Shown here: positions 8,407-27,162 of the stretch, piece by piece
Position numbering within the stretch: position 1 is the first letter of the stretch
How the letters are laid out: every line of letters starts with the position of its first letter
Origin: Kofleriaceae bacterium
GTDB taxonomy: Bacteria; Myxococcota_A; Polyangia; Haliangiales; Haliangiaceae
NCBI GenBank assembly: GCA_022842285.1
Contig: JALHPV010000042.1
Span: 1 to 34,794, forward strand
DNA length: 34,794 bases
Reading direction: 5' to 3'
Notes under the pieces: model-generated
Seen by the model: only the letters and a program-made list of their open reading frames with translations
What the model was told of the DNA's origin: nothing
The model's database searches: none
Translations under genes and position numbers: made by a program

Positions 8407-9420
8407 TCAGTTACTGCGCGGCGGGATCCGAAAGCGATGCAGCACCGGCACGCTCCCCAGGAGATCCATTTCGGACTCGACGTACCCGACGGTCCAGTTG
8501 TTGACGACGAGGAGGTAGCCCGACTCGCCCATGGTGTCGGAGACGATACCGATGTGGTCGGGGCCCTTGCGGCTCGGGAACGTATCCATGAAGACGATGT
8601 CGCCGGGGCGGTATGGATCGCTCGCATCGTCGAGCGCGGCGGTGTGCTCCACCCACTGGCGCTTGAAGTAGGGCAGGAGCGTCTTCACGCGGCGGTGATC
8701 GATCTCGGGATTGCCGTTGCCCTTCACCATCGGATACGCGGAGCGCTTGGCCTTGATGTCCTTCTGGAGCGCCGTCTGGAGATCGATGCCGGCGTTCCGG
8801 ACCGCGCGAATGACGACGTCGGTGCAGACACCCTGGTCGCGGGGCACGTCGCCGTCGGGGTAGCTGATCTCCTTGTACCCCTCGGTGTAGGCCGCGCCGT
8901 TCAGCGTGACCTTCTTCGCGCCAACGAGCACGTCGAGCTCGTCCGGGATGCCATCGCGATCACGATCCGACGCGCCGGCGGTGGTGGTGATGCGATCGGC
9001 CGCCAGCAGCGGGGCGAGCTCGGCGCGGTCGCCCGGCCGCAGCGTCAGCACGTGCGGCCCCACCGTCAGCGTCGTGCTGCCCGTGAGCGGGTAGATCTTG
9101 CGCGGGTAGGTATCGATCGCGAGCACGAGGACCGCGTGATCGGCGTCGAGGGTGGCGGTCACGCGGCTCGGTGCGAGGTCAGGCGGAAGGGCGATCTGCA
9201 CCTGTGCATCGAGGTCGGCCCAGATGCCCTTGTCGGCGACACCGAGGCTGGTCTCCGGCTGCGCCGCGGGCGTCGACGGGCGATGGGTGGCGGGCCTGGG
9301 GCGTTCCGCCGCAGGTGGGACGGACTCCGAGCCAGGTGCGGGGGCGGCCTCGGCACTGCAACTGGCCGAAACCAGGAGGGAGATCGCGGCGAGCGAATAC
9401 CGGGAACCAAACGGCATCAT
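8407..9420 (-). CDS. DUF1287 family exported protein with a calcium-repeat segment
   Basis: 338 residues from ATG 9420; a second ATG is the next codon. The N-terminus (FGSRYSLAAISLLVSASCSA) is a signal peptide; Cys21 could be lipidated, but the preceding residues fit a lipobox poorly. After a disordered Pro/Ala stretch and a beta-rich region, a thrombospondin-3/EF-like segment DRDRDGIPDELD appears. The C-terminal half carries DUF1287 hallmarks: YPDGDVPRDQGVCTDVVIRA with Cys199, IDHRRVKTLLPYF, GDIVFMD and DHIGIVSD with His289. Cys plus His suggests an NlpC/P60-like hydrolase fold; the family has no settled activity that I know. First gene of the leftward block, with its promoter expected in 9421-9546. 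Confidence 0.82.
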   Translation of the reverse strand: MMPFGSRYSLAAISLLVSASCSAEAAPAPGSESVPPAAERPRPATHRPSTPAAQPETSLGVADKGIWADLDAQVQIALPPDLAPSRVTATLDADHAVLVLAIDTYPRKIYPLTGSTTLTVGPHVLTLRPGDRAELAPLLAADRITTTAGASDRDRDGIPDELDVLVGAKKVTLNGAAYTEGYKEISYPDGDVPRDQGVCTDVVIRAVRNAGIDLQTALQKDIKAKRSAYPMVKGNGNPEIDHRRVKTLLPYFKRQWVEHTAALDDASDPYRPGDIVFMDTFPSRKGPDHIGIVSDTMGESGYLLVVNNWTVGYVESEMDLLGSVPVLHRFRIPPRSN

Positions 9421-24957: not shown

Positions 24958-26094
24958 ATGCACGCGTCGACGATGATCCGACGCACGCGTGTCGAGATCG
25001 ACCTCGCCGCGATCGTCGGCAACGCGCGGCGAGTTCGCGCGCTGACGCAGGCCGAGGTCTACGCGGTGGTGAAGGCCGATGGCTACGGGCACGGCGCGAT
25101 CACGGTCGCGCAGGCTCTCGCCAAGGCGAACGCCGCGGCGGGCTTCGCCGTCAGCCTGGTCGAGGAGGGCGTGGCCCTGCGCGACGCGGGGATCACGCTG
25201 CCGATCCTCGTGATGGGGCCGTCGCAGCACGGTGGCGAAGACGACATGGTCGGCACCCACCTGACCCCGGTCGTGTCGAGCGAGGATGACCTCGCCGCGC
25301 TGGTGCCCATCGCGCAGCGACGGGGTCCGTTCGAGGCGCACCTGAAGGTCGACACGGGCATGAACCGGCTCGGCGCGACGCCCGCCCAAGCCCCGAGCCT
25401 CGCGCGCGCCGCGGCCGACGCTGGCATTCGCATCGTCGGCCTCATGACGCACTTCGCGTGCGCGGACAGCGACGACCCCGCCGACCTCTCGTCGATGACC
25501 CGCGAGCAGCTGCGGCGCTTCCGCGACGTCGATCGTGCCGTGACCGCGACGGGGGCGCCGATCCGCATGCGTCATGCGGCGAACTCCAGCGGCGCCCTGT
25601 GGTTCCCCGAGGCGCGCTTCGACCTCGTGCGCACGGGCATCGCGATCTACGGCAACGGGCGCTGGCCCGATGGCCAGACTCCGACGCAGGCGATGCGCCT
25701 CGTCACGGAGGTCACGCAGGTCCGCGACATCGCGGAGGGCGACTCCGTCGGCTACGGCGCGACGTGGCGTGCGCCCCGGCGCAGTCGCGTCGCGGTGCTG
25801 CCCCTCGGTTACGCCGATGGCTTGCCGCGCCGGGCGACGGGAAACGCCCACGCCATCATTCGTGGACGACGTATGCCGTTGGTCGGGCTCGTCAGCATGG
25901 ATATCGTCATCGCCGACGTGACCGATCTGCCCGACGTCCAGATCGGAGACCCGGCGGTGCTGCTCGGCCGTGCGGCCGGCGGCGATGCGATCAGCGTGGC
26001 CGAGTACGGCGCGTGGTCGGGACTCTCCGAGTACGAGGTCACGTGCGGGATGTCCAAGCGCGTGCCCCGCACGTACGTCGGAGACGCCCCGTGA
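24958..26094 (+). CDS. alr: Alanine racemase
   Basis: Interconverts L- and D-alanine with PLP, supplying D-Ala for peptidoglycan. 378 residues, the usual length. Lys39 in AVVKADGYGHGA forms the Schiff base; Tyr266 in VGYGATWRAP is the second catalytic base; LKVDTGMNRLGATPAQ, GLMTHFACAD, VLPLGYADGLPR and GLVSMDIVIADVTD are family landmarks. ATG 24958 is used; ATG 24973 (IRRTRVEIDLAAI) is equally plausible. The stop overlaps a GTG (GTGA) that opens the first micro-ORF of the repeat region, leading into mlaE. No signal peptide, so cytoplasmic. Confidence 0.95.
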   Translation: MHASTMIRRTRVEIDLAAIVGNARRVRALTQAEVYAVVKADGYGHGAITVAQALAKANAAAGFAVSLVEEGVALRDAGITLPILVMGPSQHGGEDDMVGTHLTPVVSSEDDLAALVPIAQRRGPFEAHLKVDTGMNRLGATPAQAPSLARAAADAGIRIVGLMTHFACADSDDPADLSSMTREQLRRFRDVDRAVTATGAPIRMRHAANSSGALWFPEARFDLVRTGIAIYGNGRWPDGQTPTQAMRLVTEVTQVRDIAEGDSVGYGATWRAPRRSRVAVLPLGYADGLPRRATGNAHAIIRGRRMPLVGLVSMDIVIADVTDLPDVQIGDPAVLLGRAAGGDAISVAEYGAWSGLSEYEVTCGMSKRVPRTYVGDAP

Positions 26095-26171
26095 GCGAAG
26101 CGAACACTCCGTATAGCCGAGCGCTTCGCGAGGCGATGGGCGGGACCGTCGCCGTGGCGAGGGTCCCGTGA
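26091..26171 (+). CDS. Micro-ORF 1 in the alr-mlaE repeat
   Basis: 26 codons from GTG 26091, overlapping the alr stop by GTGA and ending with TGA that overlaps the next GTG (26168). It encodes MSEANTPYSRALREAM followed by GGTVAVARVP. Its first four codons, GTG AGC GAA GCG, are the same as those of micro-ORF 2 and mlaE. It may serve only to hand ribosomes on; a functional peptide is not implied. Confidence 0.4.
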   Translation: MSEANTPYSRALREAMGGTVAVARVP

Positions 26172-26224
26172 GCGAAGCGAACACTCCGTATAGCCGAGCG
26201 CTTCGCGAGGCGAGGGTCCCGTGA
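26168..26224 (+). CDS. Micro-ORF 2 in the alr-mlaE repeat
   Basis: 18 codons (MSEANTPYSRALREARVP) from GTG 26168, with GTGA overlaps at both ends: with micro-ORF 1 upstream and with mlaE downstream. It shares its first 15 codons with micro-ORF 1 and lacks the segment between. Coding status depends on whether ribosomes actually reinitiate here. Confidence 0.4.
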   Translation: MSEANTPYSRALREARVP

Positions 26225-27162
26225 GCGAAGCGCCGCCGCCGCCGCCGCCCGGCGAGACGAAGCCCGGCATGGGCGTGAGCGAGGTCTCGCATACGAAGCG
26301 CAAGGTCCCGCAGCCCTACCTGCAGGCCGCGGCGCCAGAGAAGAAGGTCACGGTCCCCGGTGCGCTCTGGCAGGGCGTGAAGGACACGGGGGCGCCGGTG
26401 CAGCGCTTCCTCGACATGTTCGGCGGGCACATGATCATGATGGCCAAGTCGCTGGCGTGGCTGCCGCGCCGGCCCTACCGCCCGAAGAACTACCTGGAGG
26501 CGGCCGAGTACATCGGCTTCGGCAGCCTGCCGATCGTCTTGCTCGTGGGCTTCTTCACGGGCGCCGTCATGTCGCTGCAGTCGATCTTCGCCTTCAAGGC
26601 GTTCGACCTCGAGTCGTTCTCGGGCGGCGTCACCGCCAAGGCGATCGCGAGCGAGCTCGGCCCCGTGCTCACGTCACTCATGCTCTCCGGTCGTGCGGGC
26701 GCGGGCATCGCGACGGAGCTCGGCACGATGCGCATCTCCGAGCAGATCGACGCGCTCGAATCGATGGCCGTCAATCCGCTCCAGTACCTCGTGTTGCCTC
26801 GTCTCGTCGCGGCGACGATCGTCACGCCCATCCTCGGCCTCCTGTTCTTCTGCATCGGCATGGGCGGTGCCTGGCTCGTCGCGATCATCCTCTACGACGT
26901 GCCCCAGGGGCAGTGGGTCGCGAACCTACGCAACATCACCGCGCCCATCGACGTGGTGCAGGGCATGATCAAGTGCGCCTTCTTCGGCTTCATGGTCACC
27001 CTCATCGGCTGCTATCAGGGCTTCAACGCCCAGGGCGGCGGTCGTGGCGTCGGCATCGGCACCACTCGCGCCGTCGTGCTCGGCAGCGTCTCGACGCTCA
27101 TCCTCGACTACTTCCTCAGCGACATCCTGCTGTCGATCTTTGGGTCGGGACGGGGCGGCTGA
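26221..27162 (+). CDS. mlaE: MlaE-family ABC transporter permease
   Basis: Inner-membrane permease of the Mla/MCE phospholipid transporter, 313 residues. A hydrophilic, Pro-rich N-terminal extension (about 1-80) precedes the conserved core: YLEAAEYIGFGSLPIVLLVG, FTGAVMSLQS, ELGPVLTSLMLSGRAGAGIA, ELGTMRISEQIDALESMAVN (the EQ-loop contacting the ATPase), LVLPRLVAATIVTPIL, and IKCAFFGFMVTLIGCYQGFN. Five or so membrane segments. The GTG start lies in the third copy of the repeat sequence and has no other obvious ribosome-binding site. ATG 26270 inside the extension is a possible alternative. The stop overlaps mlaF by one base. Confidence 0.9.
   Translation: MSEAPPPPPPGETKPGMGVSEVSHTKRKVPQPYLQAAAPEKKVTVPGALWQGVKDTGAPVQRFLDMFGGHMIMMAKSLAWLPRRPYRPKNYLEAAEYIGFGSLPIVLLVGFFTGAVMSLQSIFAFKAFDLESFSGGVTAKAIASELGPVLTSLMLSGRAGAGIATELGTMRISEQIDALESMAVNPLQYLVLPRLVAATIVTPILGLLFFCIGMGGAWLVAIILYDVPQGQWVANLRNITAPIDVVQGMIKCAFFGFMVTLIGCYQGFNAQGGGRGVGIGTTRAVVLGSVSTLILDYFLSDILLSIFGSGRGG

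Follow-up and report, generated by a model that had tools for sequence, protein, structure and literature searches.

A short repeat in the genome of an uncultured Myxococcota occurs systematically at the translation starts of protein genes. Ten copies were identified at six loci, and at each of these the array immediately precedes an RTGA start and points the same way as the gene that follows. Each unit provides a start codon (GTG in nine copies, ATG in one), is free of in-frame stops and closes with a TGA whose overlap with the next start reads NTGA. The explanation that we favour, and consider probable, is a lineage-specific, non-autonomous REP/MITE-like repeat acting as a translationally transparent passenger that preserves the hand-over of ribosomes. 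Where the genes of an operon overlap, extra DNA would seem to have nowhere to go; here, judging from the empty sites of a dozen relatives, an element appears to have entered a 4-bp stop/start overlap and to have restored it at either end.

The alr–mlaE junction and the anatomy of the unit

The window, i.e. the whole stretch of 34,794 nucleotides that was analysed, contains two units between alr and mlaE (Table 1). The 12 bases GTGAGCGAAGCG are present at 26091, 26168 and 26221, and the starts of the two units are 77 bp apart. The units share 52 bp at 98% identity, the first 46 bp being identical, and the 8-bp stem GCGAAGCG/CGCTTCGC with its 19-nt loop is found in both, as described in the first-pass annotation. 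The third repeat claimed there, at mlaE, holds for the 12-mer only: this is accompanied by a short upstream match, but not by a full unit. The end of alr reads CCG-TGA, its stop codon (26092-26094) overlapping the GTG of unit 1, and the micro-ORFs, 26 and 18 codons long, do chain alr to mlaE, every junction being a GTGA overlap. Unit 2 has lost 24 nt of its tail between two GGCGA repeats, an in-frame deletion. A simple consensus scan of the alr–mlaE interval gave no promoter- or terminator-like site.

Table 1. Features of the alr–mlaE junction (positions in the window)
Feature	Position	Strand	Basis
alr (alanine racemase), upstream partner	24958-26094	+	Pfam PF01168 and PF00842
Unit 1, 77 nt: core 26091-26136, tail 26137-26167	26091-26167	+	
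Micro-ORF 1, VSEANTPYSRALREAMGGTVAVARVP, 26 codons plus TGA	26091-26171	+	
Core palindrome of unit 1: GCGAAGCG (26095-26102), 19-nt loop, CGCTTCGC (26122-26129)	26095-26129	+	sequence, fold
Tail hairpin of unit 1, GGGACC...GGTCCC, abutting the next GTG	26142-26167	+	-19.8 kcal/mol, z -2.5
Unit 2, 53 nt: core of unit 1, shortened tail, no tail hairpin	26168-26220	+	
Micro-ORF 2, VSEANTPYSRALREARVP, 18 codons plus TGA	26168-26224	+	
mlaE permease, beginning with GTGAGCGAAGCG at the stop of micro-ORF 2	26221-27162	+	Pfam PF02405

Alignment of the copies defines a full unit of about 77-80 bp, composed of a 46-nt core, GTGAGCGAAGCGAACACTCCGTATAGCCGAGCGCTTCGCGAGGCGA, and a tail of 31 or 34 nt. Examined by eye in the alignment, the core stem pairs fully at four loci, G-U pairs included, and retains 7/8 pairs at C469 and 6/8 at C383 (loci are named here by contig, C42 being the window). 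The tail forms a second hairpin, GGGxCC...GGxCCC, which ends exactly at the next start codon and is found in five of the six loci. Its folding energies elsewhere than in the window range from -13.9 to -23.9 kcal/mol, with z from -1.7 to -3.5 except at C336, where it is weak (z 0.1). Across loci the outer tail stem has 33 Watson-Crick pairs out of 36; when arms were exchanged between loci the mean was 28.3 pairs, and 33 was reached in 12 of 720 permutations. Maintenance of the tail hairpin thus has modest support.

Copies of the unit in the genome and empty sites in relatives

The source genome is a Kofleriaceae-like MAG of 7.9 Mb in 550 contigs. Searching it answered the question of whether the 46-bp unit is unique to alr–mlaE: a 69-base query returned the ten copies (E 1e-8 to 1e-29), after which the next matches are half-length. 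Chance does not explain the 52-bp repeat of the window: five other loci match it, at E 1e-8 to 5e-17. A profile built on the translated frame recovers 10/10 copies, with E 2e-12 to 1e-14 for nine of them and 1.5e-8 for the shortened second unit of the window.

The copies form arrays of one, two or three tandem units, with multiple units at three loci. The genes that follow are mutually unrelated in function: mlaE (C42, two units), a Ser/Thr kinase (C181, one), an FAD-linked oxidase (C31, one), a homocysteine S-methyltransferase (C336, one) and two short proteins without Pfam match (C383, three units, and C469, two). Unit spacings are 53, 77 or 80, all equal to 2 modulo 3, and every tandem unit is open and exits in NTGA; the proposal that duplication had kept an unbroken stop/start relay is therefore borne out beyond the window. 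Upstream, the stop of the preceding gene also overlaps the first unit at C42, C336 and C383, the ORF of C383 having weak similarity to histidine-kinase-like ATPases. A gap of about 20-35 nt separates the preceding gene from the first unit at C181 and C469, the gene at C469 being a long priA-like ORF, and at C31 the preceding gene appears to be divergent. As the upstream context varies in this way, the constant partner of the array is the downstream start codon and not the upstream stop.

A TATACT motif is present at C469 about 30 nt before the first unit, after the priA-like ORF, and similar motifs are seen in many relatives' spacers. Its position suggests a promoter with a very short leader, and the micro-ORF may open that transcript.

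No full unit was found in 15 members of the genus searched at E 1e-3, one of them having a half-length palindrome only. The alr–mlaE order is kept in 12 of these 15 congeners, and in all 12 the two genes meet in a direct NTGA stop/start overlap. At the C383 junction 8/8 relatives show the direct NTGA overlap; at that of C336 it is present in 6/9, the other three being non-overlapping, with a gap within about 15 nt. For C181, C469 and C31 the unit is absent among the orthologues listed. Since the relatives have the direct overlap and no unit, the arrangement of the source genome is derived. On this comparative reading, the insert is placed exactly in the stop/start overlap, rebuilding it on both sides, and the start of mlaE at the alr overlap is the ancestral one, rather than ATG 26270, which had been raised as an alternative. 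In the relative G007, the orthologue of the C181 kinase carries GCAGCGCGGTGAGTG in tandem at its start, a small start-region duplication.

Fainter traces were also recorded in the source genome. On the minus strand of C39, near 25160-25176, a truncated 20-nt look-alike, ATGAGCGAAGCGAACCCGGG, reads MSEANPG followed by a stop; its ATG overlaps the stop of the upstream ORF and its TGA the ATG of the next. This may be a decayed seventh locus, although the sequence match by itself (E 0.89) does not rise above chance. On C268, at about 8570-8600, GTGAGCGAAGCGGACC lies at an upstream stop and is followed by GTGAGTAAC, the likely next start; this 16-nt case overlaps the upstream stop, extends a few bases into the next gene and is a possible relic weaker than C39, again at chance level by sequence alone (E 3.1). 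Both are suggestive only. Look-alikes of 12-17 bases at C27, C21, C76, C64, C514, C39:2123 and C113 show no stop/start relay and were set aside as chance.

TCCGTAYAGSCGAGCGYTTCGCGAGSCGA, which forms the right half of the core, is found again just after stop codons in C37 and C434 of the same genome, and near gene ends in congener G014, where three matches correspond to loci of Kofleriaceae bacterium Bin8.14; C37, C434 and G014 thus share a related 29-bp palindrome beside gene ends. A family of REP-like palindromes in the genus is the probable source of the unit. A REP-like palindrome, TCCGTACAGGCGAGCGCTTCGCGAGCCGA, was also noted close to the ends of genes, sometimes immediately behind the stop, in the MAG Bin8.14 and in C37 and C434.

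In wider searches, a degenerate 45-nt pattern had no match in a named genome collection (from which the source genome itself was possibly left out). Plasmids, phages and viral contigs gave nothing relevant, the two Pseudonocardia plasmid matches being of 28 nt at E 8e-3, and Rfam gave no match at E up to 1.

A probable passenger in the ribosome hand-over, and other readings

We propose that, at six loci, the element either inserted immediately 5' of RTGA(GC) start codons or duplicated these sites, and that tandem amplification then took place at three of the loci. A new start codon would come from the left end of the unit and an open frame of 18-27 codons from its body, and the right end would place the TGA of the micro-ORF over the original start codon (NTGA). 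Because the ends recreate the stop/start overlaps, the termination-reinitiation geometry of the host genes would be rebuilt. Ribosomes leaving the upstream gene would then reach the downstream gene by way of the micro-ORFs, each melting on its way the tail hairpin that covers the next start. The peptide itself would do no work, and the unit may persist as a passenger because the arrangement costs the operon little. Natural junctions with one, two or three micro-ORFs, and with none in relatives, are material for tests of termination-reinitiation.

The route of insertion left few marks. Neither a transposase nor a donor nor a clean target duplication could be found for the unit; the bases common to both sides of the insert number about 5 to 16 and are variable, and the starts differ (GTG/ATG) at two loci. 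Dispersed copies (ten, at six loci) with empty sites in congeners are a feature of MITEs. Integron attC sites were considered and dropped. A bolder account, possible if doubtful in our view, is a mobile element specialised for translation starts, which would recognise RTGAGC and act as a portable relay cassette before arbitrary genes, its tandem copy number being an evolvable expression dial; such an element would bring its own start, micro-ORF and start-covering hairpin. In the pieces of the genome examined RTGAGC occurs about 1.6 times per kb, i.e. roughly 12,600 times in the genome. Either targeting or survivorship could account for the exact placement at starts, which was seen at six loci of one MAG.

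Alternatively, the unit could be a regulatory coupling cassette, kept as useful, that throttles or tunes translation of the next gene through reinitiation efficiency and the start-covering hairpin, a copy number of 1-3 setting the level; the repeat-number switch for mlaEFD raised in the first-pass annotation would be a possible case of it. The arrays of one, two and three units are all in frame for the relay, the tail hairpin abuts the next start with some covariation of its arms, and the 24-nt in-frame deletion removes this hairpin in one unit. We nevertheless judge such a cassette unlikely: the six downstream genes have no common function, no congener has the unit at these loci, and the covariation is modest, the hairpin not being kept everywhere.

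The genome contains two Y1_Tnp-like ORFs above the Pfam cut-off and one below, and a classical REP/REPIN family moved by a RAYT (Y1) transposase of the genome, the start codon being incidental to landing, was also considered. The unit is palindromic, dispersed and located at gene boundaries, and the genus has related palindromes near gene ends. However, the tetranucleotide at the foot of its hairpin is not GT[AG]G, its loop is long and its copies are few. The association with a RAYT-type transposase, which the first-pass annotation had proposed to look for, was not observed: in the neighbourhoods examined in this 550-contig draft, no unit-like sequence lies within 2-3 kb around the Y1_Tnp-like ORFs. 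This origin is improbable.

At the six loci, the micro-ORF frame has pS 0.08 and pN 0.16 in the core, and pS 0.27 and pN 0.37 in the tail. These values give no indication that the peptide is constrained; what is retained is the start, the openness of the frame and the stop overlap. A functional micropeptide family, i.e. a 26-27-residue VSEANTPYSRALREA... protein duplicated as a gene, has very little in its favour: start, frame and stop are retained in all ten copies and MS.A.....R..REA is invariant in the alignment, but these residues are invariant because the DNA is, and codon statistics (pN above pS in the coding frame) and missing homologues (none in congeners beyond chance matches, none in PHROGs, and no Pfam match for micro-ORF 1) count against it. 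Weak profile matches in relatives (E 0.009-0.035) were inspected and look like chance in unrelated sequence. As a DNA element carrying an open frame, the passenger repeat that we prefer would represent one way for new small ORFs to appear in bacterial genomes.

Comparison with known repeats and with translational coupling

The initial interpretation of a REP-like element whose end works as a translation start is partly supported overall: the unit is dispersed, contains a palindrome and always stands at an RTGA start, but the canonical marks of REPs are lacking. REP and REPIN, the GTAG- or CGTC-tagged repeats (PMC3733652, PMC3116915, PMC6006769), are likewise short dispersed palindromes found at gene boundaries, singly or in small clusters. 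The neighbouring ORF is reported often to take its stop codon (TAG) from the end of a GTAG REP (PMC3733652), whereas the unit supplies a start codon together with a whole micro-ORF, and does so at gene starts. At the foot of the REP hairpin stands the tag GT[AG]G (or CGTC), in place of which the unit has GTGA in nine copies and ATGA in one. REP hairpin loops are of 2-5 nt, against the 19 nt closed by the 8-bp core stem; the tail hairpin is short-looped but tagless. REPs often exceed 100 copies per genome, compared with ten here, and a RAYT gene is flanked by its repeat, whereas the Y1 neighbourhoods examined in the draft have no RAYT flanked by the unit.

Rickettsia palindromic elements (RPE) are selfish-looking, compatible with translation and carry an ORF (PMC10969869). 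The unit is also palindromic, translation-compatible and ORF-carrying, but RPEs fuse in frame inside host proteins, whereas the micro-ORF of the unit stands on its own between genes at 6/6 loci and leaves the host proteins whole. On these comparisons, the unit seems to resemble REPs in giving a codon to its neighbour and RPEs in its compatibility with translation, but lacks those defining features of both that were tested. A limited search of the literature found no element placed repeatedly at start codons and forming NTGA relays, which is not proof of absence.

Stop/start overlaps of the NTGA type are known from translational coupling (PMC12548453, PMC6728339), of which they are the commonest geometry (PMC12548453); every junction of the units has this same -4 NTGA geometry. 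The structure lying over the downstream start in the unit fits the RNA-unfolding model of coupling (PMC12548453, PMC6728339). Compared with ordinary NTGA coupling, the distinctive point would be the passage of ribosomes via one to three repeat-encoded micro-ORFs, which are absent from the relatives.
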